Assembly (NCBI RefSeq): GCF_000482245.1
Contig: NZ_AWNH01000074.1
Span: 1 to 45,041, forward strand
Reading direction: 5' to 3'
DNA length: 45,041 bases
Source: Leptolyngbya sp. Heron Island J
Lineage (GTDB): Bacteria; Cyanobacteriota; Cyanobacteriia; Phormidesmidales; Phormidesmidaceae
Shown here: positions 1,346 through 45,041 of the stretch, one piece after another
How the letters are laid out: each line of letters starts with the position of its first letter
Position numbering within the stretch: position 1 is the first letter of the stretch
The notes under the pieces: generated by a model
The model's input: the letters and a program-made list of their open reading frames with translations, nothing else
The model's database searches: none
What the model was told of the DNA's origin: nothing
Made by a program: the position numbers and the translations under genes

Positions 1346-1420
1346 GGAATCAAGATAGAGACCTGGACGATAAATAAATCCTAAGTAGCATTAGTCCGAT
1401 ATAGGAGGGATGATTATACT

Positions 1421-1541
1421 GAAACTTTCCACCTAATCACCTGTATAGGGATCTTAGGCTGACGTATTTCCACCTAATCACCTGTATAGGGATCTTAGGC
1501 AGAAATATTTCCACCTAATCACCCATATGGGGTAGATAGGT
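1421..1541. repeat. Three 41-bp direct repeats bounded by a 15-bp inverted repeat (attI/promoter region)
   Basis: Copies start at 1426, 1467 and 1508, each beginning TTTCCACCTAATCACC. The first two are identical over 34 bases and the third diverges after CACC. The block starts with GAAACTTTCCACCTA (1421-1435) and ends with its exact complement (1527-1541), so the third copy is itself a palindrome (1508-1536). It lies between the integrase start and the first cassette. Integron attI regions often carry direct repeats bound by IntI, so these are plausibly IntI or regulator binding sites. That role is inferred. Confidence 0.65.
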
Positions 1542-1574
1542 GGAAAGTTTCCCTCTAATAAAGAGTTAGCTGGC
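1542..1574 (+). other. Putative attI core site
   Basis: GTTAGCT at 1565-1571 loosely resembles an integron core (GTTRRRY) and sits between the 41-bp repeats and the first plus-strand gene, where attI is expected. Cassette 1 would begin at 1566. This is assigned from position and a short match only. Confidence 0.45.
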
Positions 1575-1588
1575 ATCCAAAGCGCACA

Positions 1589-1996
1589 ATGCGACACGTA
1601 GAACTAGCCAAGCAATTATGGCCGAAAGCGAAGTTTATCCTGCTGCCATGGGACGGATCAGCGACAGAGATGTTTATCACTTCACTTAACAATGACTCCC
1701 TACACCATTCCATAGAAGTAATTCAAAATTTTGTAAATAACCCTGAGATTATTTGTATTGCCAATGAGCACATTGAAACACCTGTGCCTCTAACTTCAGT
1801 TGCGCTGGAAAAGCTCAGTGTCGATCCAGATAACCTTATCCAACATGCAATACGCGGTTCATTTATGAAAGCAGGCGATATGTGCTTTTACATTTGGGTG
1901 GATGGACAAAACCAGTCACATGATGTCGAAATGGTGTTCTGGAATAACCTACATTTCCCGAAGACAGTATCCGATGAGCAACATATCACTACCTAG
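1589..1996 (+). CDS. Hypothetical protein, first cassette gene
   Basis: A 135-aa soluble, acidic protein whose family I do not recognise. It has no signal peptide, membrane segment or known motif; the N-terminus reads MRHVELAKQLWPKAKFILLPW. It starts 18 bases after the proposed attI core, which is normal for the first cassette of an array and would place it under an integron promoter. No ribosome-binding site precedes the ATG at 1589, also common in cassette genes. A small possible ORF follows nine bases after its stop codon. Confidence 0.6.
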   Translation: MRHVELAKQLWPKAKFILLPWDGSATEMFITSLNNDSLHHSIEVIQNFVNNPEIICIANEHIETPVPLTSVALEKLSVDPDNLIQHAIRGSFMKAGDMCFYIWVDGQNQSHDVEMVFWNNLHFPKTVSDEQHITT

Positions 1997-2005
1997 GAAA
2001 GGATC

Positions 2006-2122
2006 GTGGCTTTTACTGAACAGATTAGAGAGGGAACGTTAAATAGCAAATGTATTCTCACTCCGGAGCACAATGGGTCTGTAGAAGAGTTGTTTGACCA
2101 TAAATCTATTGTTGTTTGGTGA
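2006..2122 (+). CDS. Possible 38-aa small protein
   Basis: A GTG-started frame encoding 38 residues (begins VAFTEQIREGTLNSKCIL, ends HKSIVVW), preceded by AGGAAAGG four bases upstream, a better ribosome-binding site than its neighbours have. It could be a short cassette protein, a co-translated partner of the gene before it, or the tail of a decayed gene. No family is recognised. Confidence 0.3.
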   Translation: MAFTEQIREGTLNSKCILTPEHNGSVEELFDHKSIVVW

Positions 2123-2272
2123 AAACCATGCAGCAGCCCATTGAAGCTTGGGTATACAGTCTTTTTAAGGGAACATCGGTTCGTGTAGCTCCTAGAGTAT
2201 TTTTACTTATTTAAACAGTGAAAGCTCAGATCAGCTATGATCTTTACAGTTATGGTATCTAGATCTAACATC

Positions 2273-2515
2273 ATGCTGCGGGAAAACCTTAAGCAGGAAA
2301 TTGATAAGCTCAATGACAGCCAACTGAGGAAAATCGCTGACTTTATCAATTCCGTCAAAGCTCAGGCTCAGCAACTTGCACAGTCAATGCCATTTTGGCA
2401 ACGTGCAACGCCTGTCGAACGCGCCGATAATTTTCGTAGATGGGTAGCTCAATTACCTAAAACAAGCGTCACACTATCAGATAAAGCGTTTGACCGTGGC
2501 AATATTTACGAATAA
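2273..2515 (+). CDS. VapB-type antitoxin
   Basis: An 80-aa antitoxin-like protein (MLRENLKQEIDKLNDSQLRKIADF at the start, split here only by reading: helical N-terminus, then a flexible tail SMPFWQRATPVERADNFRRW). Small cyanobacterial antitoxins paired with PIN toxins share this pattern. I chose the ATG at 2273 because homologues start MLRE; an in-frame ATG at 2237 would add 12 residues. Its TAA stop overlaps the ATG of the downstream PIN gene (TAATG at 2513-2517), so the two are translationally coupled. The C-terminal tail should occupy the toxin active site. Confidence 0.65.
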   Translation: MLRENLKQEIDKLNDSQLRKIADFINSVKAQAQQLAQSMPFWQRATPVERADNFRRWVAQLPKTSVTLSDKAFDRGNIYE

Positions 2516-2979
2516 TGACTAAATATTTGCTAGACACCAATGTTGTTCTGCGGTTCAGTAATCCATCCGATTCTCAACATGATCTAGCCACTGAAGCTGT
2601 AGCTACTTTATTGTTCCAGGGCAACGAGTGCTATCTAACAGCACAAGTTTTGATTGAGCTGTGGGTTGTCGCAACACGTCCAGTAGATGTGAACGGATTG
2701 GGATGGTCGGTTGAACAAACGCATGATGTTATTGAGCAACTGTTGAACCGTTTTCCCATGGCAGATGAAACCTCTCAGATTTTCCCAAGTTGGTTCGCTC
2801 TTGTTACTGATAACCAAATCAAAGGTAAACGGACTCATGATGCCCGTGTTATGGCTGTAATGCTGACCTCTGGTATGAGTCACATCCTAACGCTAAACCC
2901 AAATGATTTTTCAGGAGTTCCAGGCATTTCGATTGTGCATCCCCAGCAAATACTTGAGGAAGCAACTAAAACTGAATAA
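2515..2979 (+). CDS. PIN-domain ribonuclease toxin (VapC family)
   Basis: A 154-aa PIN-domain protein, the RNA-cutting toxin of a VapBC pair. The Mg2+-binding acidic residues are visible: Asp7 in LLDTN near the start, Glu in VLIELWVV, and Asp in KRTHDARVMAVML, with a final acidic position near LNPNDF. The length is normal for VapC. It overlaps the antitoxin stop by one base. The pair is followed by a folded attC-like site at 2986-3061, so the module is probably a mobile cassette. Toxin-antitoxin cassettes are known in large chromosomal integrons, where they are thought to discourage loss of the array. Confidence 0.8.
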   Translation: MTKYLLDTNVVLRFSNPSDSQHDLATEAVATLLFQGNECYLTAQVLIELWVVATRPVDVNGLGWSVEQTHDVIEQLLNRFPMADETSQIFPSWFALVTDNQIKGKRTHDARVMAVMLTSGMSHILTLNPNDFSGVPGISIVHPQQILEEATKTE

Positions 2980-2985
2980 AGGCAA

Positions 2986-3061
2986 GCTAACACTGCGTTG
3001 CAACGGCGGAGCATAAGCAGTTGAGCAGAATTCAAAGTTACTCCGCCGTTGAACTCCAACG
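2986..3061 (+). other. attC-like site A after vapBC
   Basis: GCTAAC (2986-2991) opens the site. CGTTG+CAACGGCGGAG (2996-3011) pairs perfectly with CTCCGCCGTTG (3041-3051) and then CAACG (3057-3061), leaving AACTC bulged. Nested paired blocks around a variable centre match the folded-strand architecture of attC. The right end reads AACGATAT and not the usual GTTRRRY, so the core is non-canonical. Confidence 0.5.
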
Positions 3062-3160
3062 ATATATGGCCTGCTTTTAAGCTGATGTACATTCAAGTTG
3101 CAGGATTTGTGCGCTGAAACCCAGTCAGGCCATGAATCGGTCTGGAAATTTAAATGCTGA

Positions 3161-3340
3161 TTAGCTTATGAGACCCGTATTCAAAGTCCTACAGACAGGA
3201 AATAACTGAGCTTCTGGCACAAACCCTGTTTCAAAGGCTGCCCAGTGAGCTGTCTGGTCGGCTGACCAGTTCAAGCTAGCAAACTGTGAATTAATAAACG
3301 CTTGGATGGCAGATTTGTCATCTGGCTGAGTTGTCATCAT
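3161..3340 (-). pseudogene. Truncated NTF2/SnoaL-like gene
   Basis: The frame encodes 59 residues (MMTTQPDDKSAIQAFINSQF..., with WSADQTAHWAAFETGFVPEA) and then stops. Similar NTF2-like/DUF4440-type proteins run to about 120-150 residues with this N-terminus, so only the first 40-50% remains. It begins four bases after the azoreductase stop and was probably the second gene of that operon. The missing 3' part coincides with the border of the vapBC cassette at about 3.06-3.16 kb, so insertion or deletion at the cassette boundary probably broke it. Confidence 0.5.
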
Positions 3341-3344
3341 CGAT

Positions 3345-3998
3345 TTAATCTTTTATCTTTTGTGTGATCTGTTGCACCAAGTCTGGAATTGCCCCATAGG
3401 CCGATTGAATCGATTTCTGATGGCGATCGTCCCCAAATTCCTGGTATTCAATTCGAATAACGTGGTGTTTGCTAACTCCAAACAGTCTTGAGGCAACCAC
3501 AATGTGAGGATCAAGGTGGTTTATTGCCGCATTAGCACCGCCAAGTTTAAATCCACCTTCTCCTGATGCAGATAGAATCACTAAAGTCTTGCCAATCAAA
3601 ATAGGTTCGATTGGCTGTTCACCACGCGCCAAATCAAAGGAAAAGGTACGTCCAATCCGAATCACCTGGTCGATCCAGGCTTTCAGAGATGCTGGCATAC
3701 CGTAGTTGTACATCGGTGTACCGATCACAATGACAGCAGCAGCCTCCAGTTCATCAATCAGTTGATCAGAAATCTTAAGCACTTCTATTTGTTCAGGCGC
3801 ACGCTTCTCAGGTGCAGTGAAGGCGGCGGCGATCCAGGCTTCGCTCACGACTGGTGGGGGATTAAGTCCTACATCGCGTGTAATGACAGTATCATTAGGT
3901 CGAGACTTCAACCATTGTTGTGTAAAAGCCGTCGTTAATCCCCGGCTCAGGGAACGAGTGACACGCGCGCTGGCGTCAATTTTTAGAATAGTAGCCAT
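3345..3998 (-). CDS. azoR: FMN-dependent NADH:quinone oxidoreductase / azoreductase
   Basis: A 217-aa flavodoxin-like reductase of the AzoR family: two-electron reduction of quinones and azo compounds with NADH, FMN-bound and cytosolic. The FMN phosphate loop lies in the N-terminus (KIDASARVTRSLSRGL). The signature PMYNYGMPASLKAWIDQV sits around residues 95-112 and the second flavin loop SASGEGG around 145. The length is full. It is divergent from a LysR regulator about 590 bp away, a common arrangement for redox-stress reductases, so that regulator is its likely controller. A truncated NTF2-like gene follows directly. Confidence 0.85.
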   Translation of the reverse strand: MATILKIDASARVTRSLSRGLTTAFTQQWLKSRPNDTVITRDVGLNPPPVVSEAWIAAAFTAPEKRAPEQIEVLKISDQLIDELEAAAVIVIGTPMYNYGMPASLKAWIDQVIRIGRTFSFDLARGEQPIEPILIGKTLVILSASGEGGFKLGGANAAINHLDPHIVVASRLFGVSKHHVIRIEYQEFGDDRHQKSIQSAYGAIPDLVQQITQKIKD

Positions 3999-4124
3999 GA
4001 TTGTAAGTTTCTAAGAAGGGGGAGGGAACCAGGCTTCGGGTTCCGGTAGAAAGTGTTGGAGAGTGAGGATGCCGTAAGTGCTTGAATGGGGGCTAAGTTG
4101 GCTTCCATCATTGTTACGATCGAT

Positions 4125-4283
4125 TCAGTGATGGTGGTGCTTTTTGTCATCTGGAGAGTCAGTGGCTGAGGTAGTTTTGGCATAAACACCACCATCAAAA
4201 ACTCCAGTCATTGCAACAGAAAAATTCGTCGCATCGATCGCGCGAATATTGGCTGTTCCACCAATGGATAGAGTGTCAGACAT
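4125..4283 (-). CDS. Small protein with natural C-terminal His tetrad
   Basis: A 52-aa protein starting MSDTLSIGGTANIRAIDATN and ending DSPDDKKHHHH. I chose the ATG at 4283 over longer frames because AGAGGA lies seven bases upstream. The N-terminal two thirds is Ala/Thr/Gly-rich with beta-like alternation; the tail is acidic, then Lys-Lys-His4. There is no signal peptide. It sits between the azoreductase and the divergent LysR gene and is oriented with azoR (127 bp apart), so it may be the first gene of that operon. A metal-binding tail is a possible reading; no family is recognised. Confidence 0.5.
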   Translation of the reverse strand: MSDTLSIGGTANIRAIDATNFSVAMTGVFDGGVYAKTTSATDSPDDKKHHHH

Positions 4284-4584
4284 GATAGTCCTCTTGATAA
4301 GCTGTAAAAGTTCCTTGAAATAGGAAGAGTGACCTGTTTTCAATGCTCCAAAATCCAACAGACTTCGCTGAGCACAATGTTCACTGCACACACAAACGCG
4401 ATTGTTTAGTTGGGACACACCCAAGAAGTTTGCTTAGATACGTAGCTTTAGATGAGTTTTATGCAGGTCTTGAGCGATTGAAAACCTGTTTTATTCCCTT
4501 AATTTGAAGAATAACAAGGAATAGAGGAATATTGCAAATTCAATATATTCAGGCTTAGGATGAAAGAAATTCACCCACAAGCCG

Positions 4585-5487
4585 ATGCGATCGCTTCCCC
4601 CACTTAACGCTTTGCATACCTTTGAAGTGGCAGCGCGGCATCTGAGTTTTCAGCAAGCGGCTGAAGAACTGGATGTCACCTCAACGGCAGTTAGCCATCA
4701 AATCAAATTACTAGAAGATTACCTGGAAGTTTCTTTGTTTCGCCGTCGTCCTCGCCCTCTGTCGCTGACAGAAGCAGGTCAACTTTTATATCCGGTTGTA
4801 CGTGAAAGCTTGGATTCAATTGCTGAGGCGATTACCCAATTAAAGCAAGTTCCAATATCCACGACGTTAACGGTAAGCGTGACAACGGTGTTTGCAGCTA
4901 AGTGGCTAGTTCCTCGTTTAGCTGAGTTTCAACGGACGCATCCTGAAATTGATCTACGACTACAAACCTCAAACGATGTGGTAAATCTACAGCGGCAAAC
5001 AGTCGATTTAGCCATTCGCTATGGCAAAGGAAATTATCCAGGACTAGCAGTTCGCCCGCTGATGTCTGATAGGTTCGTGCCCATTTGTAGTCCACGTTTG
5101 TTGGAGAACAACCATCCAATTAGAAAACCGGATGATGTCGTGCATTATCCCCTGCTGCATTTTGAGTGGATTCACTTTGGAATCGATGCTCCTGATTGGA
5201 AAAACTGGTTTAGCGCTACGGGATTGAACACTGTTGCCCCCGACCACGGACTGAAATTTAACGAAGAAAGTTTAGCCATTCAAGCAGCGATCGCAGGTCA
5301 AGGTATAGCATTATGCAGCACTGTTCATGTTGCAGATGATGTAGCGTTAGGTTTTCTTGTGCAACCCCTCAATGTAACGCTAGACGGGTTTAACTATTCA
5401 GCGGTGTATCTAGAAAATCACCCGAAAGAAGTGCTGATTCTGAAGTTTATAGATTGGTTAGTGGAAATGGCTGGTCATGTCTCTTAA
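4585..5487 (+). CDS. LysR-family transcriptional regulator (GcvA-like)
   Basis: A 300-aa LTTR. The winged helix-turn-helix occupies residues 1-65 (LNALHTFEVAARHLSFQQAAEELDVT, with SAVSHQIK-type recognition helix STAVSHQIKLLE). The periplasmic-binding-like effector domain covers about 90-295, with GcvA-subfamily features TTVFAAKWLVPRL and DLAIRYGKGNYPGL. The start codon overlaps a HIP1 octamer (4587-4594) and a second HIP1 lies at 5287, so codon and word usage look native cyanobacterial, unlike the cassettes on either side. It is divergent from the small protein and azoR genes and probably regulates them and itself. Confidence 0.85.
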   Translation: MRSLPPLNALHTFEVAARHLSFQQAAEELDVTSTAVSHQIKLLEDYLEVSLFRRRPRPLSLTEAGQLLYPVVRESLDSIAEAITQLKQVPISTTLTVSVTTVFAAKWLVPRLAEFQRTHPEIDLRLQTSNDVVNLQRQTVDLAIRYGKGNYPGLAVRPLMSDRFVPICSPRLLENNHPIRKPDDVVHYPLLHFEWIHFGIDAPDWKNWFSATGLNTVAPDHGLKFNEESLAIQAAIAGQGIALCSTVHVADDVALGFLVQPLNVTLDGFNYSAVYLENHPKEVLILKFIDWLVEMAGHVS

Positions 5488-5525
5488 ACCAGAGTCTTAA
5501 GGTAAAATGGAGTTTTTCGATCGCC

Positions 5526-5610
5526 GTATAACTACTCAAATGCAGCGGACGGTTGAGAGTCGTTGGTGTGGAGTTTGAGGCTATCTACTGCCGCTGATTT
5601 GAAACGATAT
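5526..5610 (+). other. attC-like site B
   Basis: GTATAAC (5526-5532) forms the left core. CAAATGCAGCGG (5537-5548) pairs with CCGCTGATTTG (5591-5601) except for one unpaired G, exactly the kind of extrahelical base that directs IntI to the attC bottom strand. The centre is variable. The right core is AACGATAT, as in site A. The fit to attC is good apart from that core. Confidence 0.65.
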
Positions 5611-5649
5611 CTTGCTGCGCGCAGGTAAATTGGCGTAATACTCACACTC

Positions 5650-6558
5650 ATGGATAGAAATAGGATTGTTGATGAACTGAAACGCATCATTTATGCTGAT
5701 TTAGTGCGTGTGGAGCCCCACTGTTTTACAGACGTAGGAGCAGGAGCGGTTTTTACAGGAAGCTTTGATTGGCATTCGAGTGTTCACGCGCACTGGGCAC
5801 TTTTGTCAATGGCGCGTCTCACTGATGATGCGCTGCTTCAAAGTAAACTTCTGTCTCGCTTGACACCCGAAAATCTTGAAGCGGAGCGAACATTTCTCAA
5901 CAATGCAGAAAATGTTGAATTTGAGATGCCTTACGGCAGAGCCTGGTTGTTGCTTATGCTTGCTGAGTTGTCTAAACATGACGAGAATAATGACTTACTC
6001 CTAAATTCTTTTCGAAAAGAATTAGAACAGCAACTGACGTTTTGGCTGGAGCAAAACAGCGCATCGAATGAAGTTATTTTGAATGGCGGTTATCAACCCT
6101 GGCTTTTTATTTTTCTTTTACTCCAATTCAGTCAGCCTAACCTCGAAATTCTCCACAGGCTTGAGGCGTTACGCTCCCAAATTGAAAATACTAGGGCAAC
6201 TATCACGACCACACAACCAGAAGAATCTGACTTCTTCTATCTTCCAGCGATTTTATATTTAATTGATCAAACGAAGGAATCGAGGGAAAAAGGTTTTTGC
6301 TACTACGATGATATAACGCCACAATTCAATCAAAACCTTAGTTTTAAGAACTGTCACCAGGCGGGAATGAATGTCGTTCGATTGTGGCCTTACGCTCTTG
6401 AGAAGCCGGTTAATGGTTGCGACAGTATATTTTTTAAGGGTTTGGGAAGAATCTTGTCACAGCCTGACCAATGGAAAGGTAGTTTCGAGCTTATCTCCCA
6501 TTGGATTCCACAGTTTATTTGGTTGGGATTAATGCTCGAGCAAGGTGAACTGCTATAA
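5650..6558 (+). CDS. DUF2891 family protein
   Basis: A 302-aa soluble protein recognised as DUF2891 from FTGSFDWHSSVHAHWALLSMAR (about residues 36-57, split as GSFDWHSSVHAHWALL) and MPYGRAWLLLMLAEL (about 98-112). The family is mostly alpha-helical and resembles alpha/alpha-barrel proteins. Its function is not established, though the Asp-Trp-His-Ser-Ser-Val-His motif suggests a catalytic or metal site. It is a single plus-strand ORF immediately downstream of attC-like site B, so it fits a gene cassette. Local DNA is AT-rich and lacks HIP1, consistent with import. The ATG at 5650 has no strong ribosome-binding site. Confidence 0.75.
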   Translation: MDRNRIVDELKRIIYADLVRVEPHCFTDVGAGAVFTGSFDWHSSVHAHWALLSMARLTDDALLQSKLLSRLTPENLEAERTFLNNAENVEFEMPYGRAWLLLMLAELSKHDENNDLLLNSFRKELEQQLTFWLEQNSASNEVILNGGYQPWLFIFLLLQFSQPNLEILHRLEALRSQIENTRATITTTQPEESDFFYLPAILYLIDQTKESREKGFCYYDDITPQFNQNLSFKNCHQAGMNVVRLWPYALEKPVNGCDSIFFKGLGRILSQPDQWKGSFELISHWIPQFIWLGLMLEQGELL

Positions 6559-42706: not shown

Positions 42707-45041
42707 CTAACCACCAGCAACGGCCTGTTTAATCGCCTCACAAATTGCAACCAAGGCTTTGTTTTGTTCAGGAGAACTAAGACTGTCAAGCGGATGCTGC
42801 GGTTCGTGGGCAGCCTGATACTTTTCAATTGGGCTATCCTTATAGGTGCTATAGCTCACAGGCACCCAGATAATTGTTAGTCCCTCATTCTCAGCAGCCT
42901 CTAAAAGCGGTGGTAGTTCGTTCTCATGGATAAAATCTGACGCTAAGAAGGGTTGACTGACTAACAATACAGCCACTTTTGCAGAGGCTAACGCATTATC
43001 TATTTCCTTGCGCCATTCAACACCGGGTTGGATGTGGGTGTCATCCCATGGAATAATTAATTCCTGACGAACCGAGGGTTTCAGAAATTCTTGCAGCTTA
43101 GTTAGCCACTCACTATTCTGGTGGCTATAGCTGATAAAAACCTTATCTCTTATTGCTTTTTGTGGCTTATTAGCATCTGGGTGATACTCAACGTGTTGCT
43201 GCTTCATCTGCTCATATTTATCTTGTTCAGATTTCTTATCTAGCTCATCAAAGCGATCGTAATCTGATAGTACTGCCGTCAGTCTGCGAACATTCACATC
43301 AATACAGCTTTTATCACAGGTGATTTCATAACGTCTTTTCTCCAAATAGCGGTCCAGCGTTGGCATCCGAAAGAAGTGGGGTTGTTTGTCTGCCTGGCAT
43401 TCCTCACAAATACAGGGAACCATCTTCGCTACTCTAATCTTTTCAAATGAGCCATTAATTTCATCAATTTCGTTGGCCACAATACTCAGTAGCTCTTTAT
43501 TGTGAACACCTGAAACCCGAATACTGATTTCCCCTTTGTAGGGGCGATAGTTCTCAATAACTTCTGTCCGAGCACGACCATTATTAAGTACTACCCCACT
43601 ACGCCAGACAATCTGCTGTTGCTCAATCCAGCGATAGAGTCTAACAATTAGCTGAGTGGCAATACCCTTGGGCATAAACTCATACTCATAACGGAGCATC
43701 AGATTATTGCTGACATCCCAATCGTAGTCAGGCGGATCGAAATCTAGAAGCTGTGGGAAAATGTAGTTATCTTTTAAGCCAGGAATCGGGTAACAGAGCT
43801 TAAAATTCTCCATCAGCTGGAGTAATTCATCCCCCATATTAACATATTGATCTTCACTCCAAATATCATCCAGCTGATCGCGAGTGAACCGTCCTTTAGC
43901 CTTGGCTACCTCTTTGTGAGTGGTAACAGCATAAACAGCATTAGTTGCCCATTCAGGCCGCAAGATGACAATATTTTTTAGTACTCGATCTCTTTGAAAG
44001 TGCAAGCAAATACCTAGGTTATGAAGAAAGTTGCTAATGCGCAACATTTCGGTACGCTCAATGATGTCACTACGTTCACATAGTGCAAAGTAATCACGTT
44101 GATCAATGTAATTTCGAGCATCGTTTTCCAGAGCATAGCGGACACGTGCCCACTTTTTAGGCAGTGGGGTACCCACAAAATCCAACTTGGTAATGTGGTA
44201 ACGAATAGCTTCCTTGATATCTTCTAACCCACGGCCATCCCTTAAATTCGTGGCGATGCATTCTTTAATATATTGAAAATCTCCCTTTAATTGTCGTTCA
44301 TTAACATTACAAGGTCTATCATCCTTTTCATTTTTGATTAGAATTACGGGACTATCACCACCAAATAGCTCAATAGATTTCAGCCAATACGGGAAATCAG
44401 TATTTTCCTTACGGGTATCGGCAACCAGGGCATAGAGGGAACGCTCAGTCAGGAAAAACTGATGGGTTTGATGATAGATTTCCTGACCACCAAAGTCCCA
44501 GAGGTTGACACGAAATTCTTGAACGTCATCGACAGAAAACTTCCACTGGATAACCTTAATGCCATGGGTAGATTCTTCCTTAGGATCTAACTTGTAATTA
44601 GGGTCTTGAATCTTTTTGGCAAGAGAGGTTTTACCTGCACCACCCTCACCAACAATCAGCAATTTTGCCTCTTGAAGAAAGAAATCTCCAGTTTCATCAG
44701 ATGATGCTTCATAGAATTGAAATATAGCTTCTAAATCTTCCTGATTTCTCCAAGAATTAGGACTTCCTAAAATCTCTGGGGGGATTGGTAATGGATTCCC
44801 ACTGAGATCGATTTGTGTAAGAGGTAAATGCTTCAACTCTAAAGGTAAGTCAGAAATCTTGTTTTGATAGAGGTCAAGCGACGTCAGACTCGTGAGCTGG
44901 ACAATCTCTGGCGGCAACTCACTCAACTGGTTAGAGCGGAGGTCAAGCGACGTCAGACTCGTGAGCTGGCCAATCTCCGGCGGCAACTCACTCAACTGGT
45001 TAGAGCTGAGGGAAAGCGACGTCAGACTCGTGAGCTGGACA
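42707..45041 (-). CDS. LRR-Roc-COR-TIR (Roco) protein, N-terminus outside window
   Basis: The visible part encodes 777 residues; more LRRs lie beyond the right edge. Order: at least three leucine-rich repeats (LTSLTSLDLRSNQLSELPPE type, 23 residues each), a Roc GTPase (P-loop VGEGGAGKTSLAKK; WDFGGQEIYHQT switch; KNEKD as the base-specificity motif), a COR domain (LRISNFLHNLGICLHFQRD; VILRPEWATNAVYAVTTH), a linker with CxxC pair CICEECQADK, and a C-terminal TIR domain (VFISYSHQNSEWLTKLQEF). The Glu in FIHENELPPLLE is a candidate NADase residue. Roco proteins act as GTP-gated dimers; with a TIR effector an NAD+-depleting or signalling role is possible, by inference. Confidence 0.88.
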   Translation of the reverse strand, partial: VQLTSLTSLSLSSNQLSELPPEIGQLTSLTSLDLRSNQLSELPPEIVQLTSLTSLDLYQNKISDLPLELKHLPLTQIDLSGNPLPIPPEILGSPNSWRNQEDLEAIFQFYEASSDETGDFFLQEAKLLIVGEGGAGKTSLAKKIQDPNYKLDPKEESTHGIKVIQWKFSVDDVQEFRVNLWDFGGQEIYHQTHQFFLTERSLYALVADTRKENTDFPYWLKSIELFGGDSPVILIKNEKDDRPCNVNERQLKGDFQYIKECIATNLRDGRGLEDIKEAIRYHITKLDFVGTPLPKKWARVRYALENDARNYIDQRDYFALCERSDIIERTEMLRISNFLHNLGICLHFQRDRVLKNIVILRPEWATNAVYAVTTHKEVAKAKGRFTRDQLDDIWSEDQYVNMGDELLQLMENFKLCYPIPGLKDNYIFPQLLDFDPPDYDWDVSNNLMLRYEYEFMPKGIATQLIVRLYRWIEQQQIVWRSGVVLNNGRARTEVIENYRPYKGEISIRVSGVHNKELLSIVANEIDEINGSFEKIRVAKMVPCICEECQADKQPHFFRMPTLDRYLEKRRYEITCDKSCIDVNVRRLTAVLSDYDRFDELDKKSEQDKYEQMKQQHVEYHPDANKPQKAIRDKVFISYSHQNSEWLTKLQEFLKPSVRQELIIPWDDTHIQPGVEWRKEIDNALASAKVAVLLVSQPFLASDFIHENELPPLLEAAENEGLTIIWVPVSYSTYKDSPIEKYQAAHEPQHPLDSLSSPEQNKALVAICEAIKQAVAGG
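44872..45041 (-). repeat. 69-bp tandem repeats encoding leucine-rich repeats
   Basis: Near-identical 69-bp units start at 44872, 44941 and 45010 (the last cut by the window edge), differing at only a few bases. Each encodes one 23-residue LRR. Nucleotide-level identity points to recent duplication or gene conversion. Confidence 0.85.

Follow-up and report, generated by a model that had tools for sequence, protein, structure and literature searches.

It is probable that the block of 41-bp repeats found beside an integron integrase gene of the cyanobacterium Leptolyngbya sp. Heron Island J forms the accessory part of an integron attI site, and that dispersed copies of this site without an adjoining integrase gene (solo attI) are loaded with cassettes in trans by the integrase IntI. 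Comparison of sequences documents the position of the site, its architecture, its crossover point, the differing cassettes found at homologous solo sites and the recurrence of a single cassette at four places in the genome of Leptolyngbya sp. PCC 7375. With somewhat more reserve, we lean towards a broader proposition, in which a dispersed integron consists of one integrase and several stand-alone attI built as half-site arrays, and in which a dyad array with a period of about 41 bp is the general plan of cyanobacterial attI.

Architecture of the attI-like array beside intI

The window, that is, the whole stretch of 45,041 nucleotides analyzed (contig NZ_AWNH01000074.1), carries on its minus strand an intI gene (positions 371-1345) for an integron integrase of 324 aa, which scores 471 bits against TIGR02249 (cut-off 265) and contains the Pfam domains Phage_integrase and Phage_int_SAM_4. 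The sequence-only reading had described, between this gene and the cassettes, three near-identical 41-bp repeats, the last of them a palindrome, closed by a 15-bp inverted repeat with matching ends and terminating at 1541. The three-copy period is real: a repeat search places the units at 1426-1466, 1467-1507 and 1508-1548, at a spacing of exactly 41 + 41, and TRF reports a period of 41 over 1426-1523 (score 175). The inverted repeat was likewise recovered as an exact 15-base match between GAAACTTTCCACCTA (1421-1435) and TAGGTGGAAAGTTTC (1537-1551); since its right arm occupies 1537-1551, the block ends at 1551 and not at 1541. Near identity holds for unit 2 (93%) and fails for unit 3 (68%), which is palindromic, as claimed, and has an altered right arm. 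The position of the block between intI and the first plus-strand ORF (1589-1996) was also confirmed.

Each 41-bp unit resolves into two half-sites of opposite orientation, TCCACCTAA and TTAGGCTGA, recognized from the half-site word and its spacing: these lie at 1428-1436 and 1454-1462 in unit 1, at 1469-1477 and 1495-1503 in unit 2, and at 1510-1518 and 1536-1544 in unit 3, all three units being written on the plus strand. A further accessory half-site, rev0 (TTATACTGA, 1414-1422, minus strand), precedes the next one by 14 bases, which is the commonest spacing of this kind. Beyond the units, the plus-strand sequence and the alignment of relatives reveal a left core box, TCCCTCTAA (1550-1558), which shares 7 of 9 bases with the unit word TCCACCTAA and misses the general half-site word TYNRNNTAW at base 4. 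The start-to-start distances of the half-sites alternate between 26 and 14-15, and the core partner is at a distance of 16. The right core box GTTAGCT (1565-1571, plus strand) contains the crossover G1565^T1566, as judged from conservation and from the shared and unshared flanks of relatives, which end at the G; the crossover core of the window is thus CTCTAATAAAGAG^TTAGC. The whole attI, comprising seven accessory half-sites and the left core box and ending at the crossover G, accordingly spans 1414-1565 on the plus strand, in keeping with the matches of relatives (approximately 1403-1570) and with the right end at GTT in an alignment of 65 copies. As the left core box is a variant of the half-site word, we read the array as a set of accessory integrase sites, to which IntI would bind.

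The outermost half-site, rev0, overlaps a TATAAT on the minus (intI) strand, which is a possible -10 box of intI and might serve in its promoter; a scan of 1300-1700 for sigma-70 promoters and terminators found nothing, and no full promoter.

Among the features of an integron, the integrase gene is thus evident from its TIGR02249 score, and an attI with a G^TT crossover lies beside it, both the conserved block and the breaks in flank similarity ending at the equivalent of G1565. Cassettes ending in attC are clear in relatives; the window offers one doubtful candidate, no better than background. The first cassette ORF (1589-1996, plus strand, 135 aa) belongs to no family found in family searches. 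It is followed by a two-gene module (2237-2979, plus strand), in which the ORF list and family searches distinguish a 92-aa ORF, for which no family was found, and a 154-aa ORF with a PIN domain. The candidate attC (2985-3067, plus strand) has good L'' and L' arms and a degenerate R' (GATATAT), and scores 36 under relaxed rules; it is weak by itself, as scores of 36-37 are reached at three more places on the plus strand of the window.

The margins of the contig show features of their own. At its start lies the only Rfam hit, a group II intron domain (RF00029, 31-107, plus strand, 62.3 bits); a hairpin that follows at approximately 131-175, beginning with GTTAGCTGGCGG, resembles the start of a cassette. 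At its end, positions 44870-45041 form a tandem repeat of period 69 (score 309).

The array plan upstream of other integron integrases

The comparison of intI-attI regions in related cyanobacteria, which the sequence-only reading had proposed as a check, showed a period of 40-42 bases to be common. In a search that used no motif, applied to the 73 of 83 stretches upstream of intI genes that had the required 250 bp, a 6-mer is repeated at a lag of 40-42 in 55 stretches, against 5-23 stretches for each of 17 other lag triplets and 39 for lags 41-43. Lag 41 alone accounts for 414 matches, versus a mean of about 5 per lag in shuffled sequences, and harmonics appear at 80-82 and 123-124. With harmonics excluded, lags 38-44 surpass all other lags in 46 of the 73 stretches (2 ties), and the 10 stretches labelled non-cyanobacterial all fall outside these 46. 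As the named intI loci were the 80 best among 566, they favor cyanobacteria, and the upstream stretches used in this and the following analysis are related to each other.

The half-site word TYNRNNTAW occurs in 63 cyanobacterial stretches 239 times in forward and 251 times in reverse orientation, versus 77 and 71 times in shuffled sequences; the word was composed after some of the same sequences had been viewed, a bias from which the lag analysis is free. The commonest spacings in these stretches are 26 from forward to reverse (n=79) and 14 from reverse to forward (n=87), and few of the 12 non-cyanobacterial stretches included in the half-site analysis have this spacing. Judged by these comparisons, the 41-bp layout is not peculiar to the window locus.

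Two further integrase genes of the same genome, on contigs C6 and C71, adjoin like arrays with other words, those of C6 being TTTCTGGATAA/TTATCCAGAAA; for C6 the best lag is 39 and for C71 it is 42, each with 9 matches. A frameshift seems to interrupt the C71 gene, whose tblastn pieces fall in three frames. The tendency of the left core box to vary with the repeats from one intI lineage to another is weak, with much noise (29 loci; reached by 173 of 5000 permutations), and the left-core-box pattern used in this test missed the window and chose a wrong place for C6.

These arrays bear on a functional alternative that we judge decidedly improbable, in which the 41-bp units would not be integrase sites but would drive the cassettes or intI, either as a promoter array or as operators for a regulator of the host. 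While the overlap of the outermost half-site with TATAAT on the intI strand and the persistence of elements without intI, documented below, would suit such a role, the unit word recurs, as a variant, in the left core box at the crossover, and the other integrase genes of the genome have like arrays of their own with other words, both of which argue for accessory integrase sites. A folded-DNA, attC-like role of the units was also considered and rejected: the complementarity of paired positions in 131 units is about that expected from the make-up of the columns, with small excesses at two positions (51 vs 39.5 and 37 vs 29.9). The conserved part of the units is one word at each end, in opposite orientation.

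Conservation of the element and its occurrence apart from intI

The repeat block is, on this comparative evidence, beyond chance, since a 201-bp query (1400-1600) finds matches in 37 of the 59 genomes searched, one of them its own, and frequently several in a single genome. Where they are full-length, the matches end near query positions 5 and 169-171 (approximately 1403-1570), the right end coinciding with G^TT, and in an alignment of 65 copies, namely the high-scoring places of this search and the copies of the genome itself, conservation of the element stops at G^TT. The consensus of the 65 copies consists of TTATACTGAA, three units of the form TTCCACCTAATCACCC..GGG..TTAGGCTGA, and then TTTCCCTCTAATAAATAG^TTA. 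A model was built from 58 of the 65, with the omission of L011, L085, L086, L088, L099, L103 and L109, which are cut, short or out of register. Addition of 20 elements chosen from later searches brought the total to 85, another 20 loci being kept out of the counts; these 85 copies have three units (n=55), two (n=18), one (n=8) or an extra partial unit (n=4).

In its own genome the element occurs, besides the window, on contigs C62, C95, C86, C53 and C17. The C53 copy keeps a fragment of intI, and the other four have none within the flanks examined. By tblastn, 21 of the 85 copies have intI or a piece of it and 64 are without, the left flank being at least 2 kb long in 60 of these 64. Part of the intI leader is kept in 22 of the 64, with many different break points, and at L054 a leader remnant is detached from the element; altogether the left side runs into intI, an intI fragment or the leader in 43 of the 85 copies. 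Copies of the attI thus exist apart from intI, as far as these flanks reveal, and many solo attI descend from complete integrons that lost intI.

The sequence-only reading had placed the block at the attI position, where IntI or a regulator should bind, and had taken the same repeat elsewhere in the genome without intI as a sign against this; such copies do stand at C62, C95, C86 and C17. Because these copies still look like attI, their occurrence does not overturn the attI reading, and this reading, with binding of the repeats by IntI, gains support from the comparison. Multiple dispersed copies with an inverted repeat at their ends would also suit a small transposon (MITE) delimited by the 15-bp arms, yet such an origin is hardly credible: the continuation of the left side into intI, its fragments or its leader in 43 of 85 copies leaves no fixed ends, copies contain anything from one unit to three or more, the left and right ends of solo copies share words no more than chance allows (11 of 64 at k=6, against a mean of 8.8 after shuffling), and no target-site duplication exceeds chance.

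Seven genomes taken together contain at least 37 loci with E <= 1e-6; an intact intI stands beside three of these and an intI fragment beside a fourth. Solo sites with no intact intI found occur in five of the genomes checked, G008, G012, G013, G014 and G023, two of which are incomplete assemblies (G012 90%, G023 87% complete). G013 has two N-terminal fragments of an intI like that of the window, and G008, G013, G014 and G023 each have several conserved solo attI. In view of these genomes, part of the solo sites may be relics or have another use. A stronger version of this idea holds that the site is an ordinary attI and that the dispersed copies are dead remains of integrons which, after the loss of intI, capture no more cassettes. 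The 21 of 85 copies that keep intI or a fragment, the varied break points of the leader in 22 of the other 64 and the genomes lacking a detectable intact intI are all in line with it; we nevertheless judge it unlikely as a general account, on the evidence given in the next section.

Some solo sites have conspicuous surroundings. Four solo attI of G020 (L093, L251, L254, L255) have approximately 570 bp of upstream DNA in common (82-90% identity), which includes a short ORF on the minus strand (92 aa in L251) and a hairpin that resembles a terminator when inspected by eye. Here the attI was duplicated together with its upstream DNA, which gives no general mechanism of dispersal. On C17 (L250, region 1905-6000) the solo attI lies approximately 100 bp downstream of a long ORF whose translation, by eye, is like that of a conjugative relaxase/helicase; the ORF behind it reads, again by eye, as a TIR-domain protein. 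The surroundings suggest a plasmid that carries a solo attI.

Signs that solo copies function as attI

A scan of the 65 elements for attC-like sites at a score of at least 38 found 15 to the right (140 kb), none to the left (181 kb) and none in shuffled sequences; 13 of the 15 are at solo loci, distributed over 12 such loci with one or two each. The threshold was chosen after the score table had been seen, the rules being looser than before and the left flank serving as control; the right/left/shuffled counts are 34/6/6 at score 34, 20/0/1 at score 36 and 15/0/0 at score 38. An earlier, stricter scan gave 9 sites in forward, 10 in reverse and 0 in shuffled sequences, strand being no control here because attC is palindromic.

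Homologous solo sites have different right flanks, contrary to what dead relics would lead one to expect. Identities of the left flank, the attI and the right flank are 82, 81 and 46% for L072/L076, 83, 92 and 47% for L056/L063, and 88, 90 and 44% for L081/L094, against a background median of 49%; the first and the last of these pairs are between genomes and L056/L063 is within one, and the breaks fall at G^TT. L009/L101 (own genome versus G028) is a further solo pair with unlike right flanks, whose left flank from -290 to -170 is only 59% identical because the flank lengths differ by approximately 0.7 kb. The half-sites, moreover, stay conserved in solo copies, which again disfavors relics: ten solo pairs, chosen by hand, non-independent and with an element in common, show differences at 67 of 719 half-site positions and 176 of 782 spacer positions, the corresponding figures for five intI-linked pairs being 39 of 360 and 136 of 395.

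The right flanks of L055 and L065, in two genomes, begin with the same 759-bp stretch (86% identity) from the first base after the G; within it, GCGCGACTCGAAGTCGTTCGGGGGAG looks like the start of what we take to be a group II intron. At L238 the attI is followed by a similar stretch.

A single cassette at several sites is found in PCC 7375 (G004). Here a 185-bp cassette with attC is present in six copies, 100% identical, which are confined within that genome to the four attI loci that reach E <= 1e-6 and stand in tandem at two of them. One of the four loci adjoins the sole intact intI found there. In five of six pairs, leftward identity ends at the G or one base before it; between L097 and L106, whose attI are 93% alike, it runs for 24 bases, the attI of the other pairs measured being 68-70% alike. 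Rightward, identity extends for 188 bases, or for 376 between the two tandem loci. These limits, the G to the left and the end of the attC to the right, are not what one would expect of homologous recombination. That three solo sites have the very cassette, base for base, that follows the intI-linked attI is difficult to reconcile with solo sites that have ceased to capture cassettes. Three weaker attI-like loci of PCC 7375 do not have the cassette and lead into other sequence: two are degenerate (27.8 and 24.1 bits), and the third, at C5:4647319, is short, with about one unit. These would suit relics; the one-unit copy (L290, approximately 3030-3106) ends at G^TT and then leads into a different gene start. 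Relatives of the cassette start directly after the attI at the solo site of C17 (88%), and also at L064, L086 and L269; one identical cassette at several sites is confined to PCC 7375.

A model of the dispersed integron

The reading that we prefer, accessory integrase sites in an attI that also acts away from intI, can be put as a sequence of steps. IntI most likely binds the whole array and thereby promotes attI x attC insertion, as DR1 and DR2 do in attI1. The variant of the half-site word, together with its partner 16 bases away, would form the crossover core. IntI may in addition silence its own promoter, given that rev0, at the outer end of the array, overlaps the minus-strand TATAAT. In the most economical account, IntI from one intact gene would insert cassettes at solo attI in trans.

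If a dispersed integron of this kind exists, one cassette could be placed at several loci, with different neighbors and promoters, and if the dyad plan of about 41 bp is general, attI could be found by sequence. A regular, findable attI, and one that works away from its integrase, would change the way integrons are counted and the views held of cassette expression. Furthermore, the co-evolution of integrase and attI would become testable in one genome, which has three kinds of integrase and three half-site words (the C71 gene looking frameshifted).

Relationship to known integron systems

The available part of PMC3607928 describes integrons as one integrase with one adjacent attI, and calls attI less conserved and harder to predict than attC. 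Neither the 41-bp dyad plan nor a stand-alone attI is described among the matches listed in a literature search that included few subscription papers. The window site is an attI, and we file it as a new form of attI.

According to the accessible portions of PMC12901181 and PMC8946536, the core of attI1 has a left box CCCTAAA and a right box GTTRRRY, with extra integrase sites, DR1 and DR2, upstream; the latter source presents these as supplementary sites that favor attI1 x attC, and attIA as being without them. The window core CTCTAATAAAGAG^TTAGC fits this plan of left and right boxes with extra sites upstream, its right box GTTAGCT departing from GTTRRRY at the sixth base. In contrast to the two direct-repeat extra sites given for attI1 in those portions, the window has seven half-sites of alternating orientation in 41-bp units. 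The attIA of the chromosomal integron of Vibrio cholerae likewise lies beside intI and undergoes the same reaction, but is said, in the part of PMC8946536 available, to be without such repeats.

Cassettes away from intI are also the mark of CALINs, which in the accessible text of PMC9668308 are defined by attC sites alone, whereas the cyanobacterial loci that have no intI still have the attI at their head. Delta-attI-type gene cassettes, as described in the available part of PMC12901181, similarly have pieces of attI apart from intI that are recombined by IntI1; there, however, the piece forms the end of a cassette within an integron, whereas in the cyanobacterial loci a whole attI leads the cassettes at separate loci.
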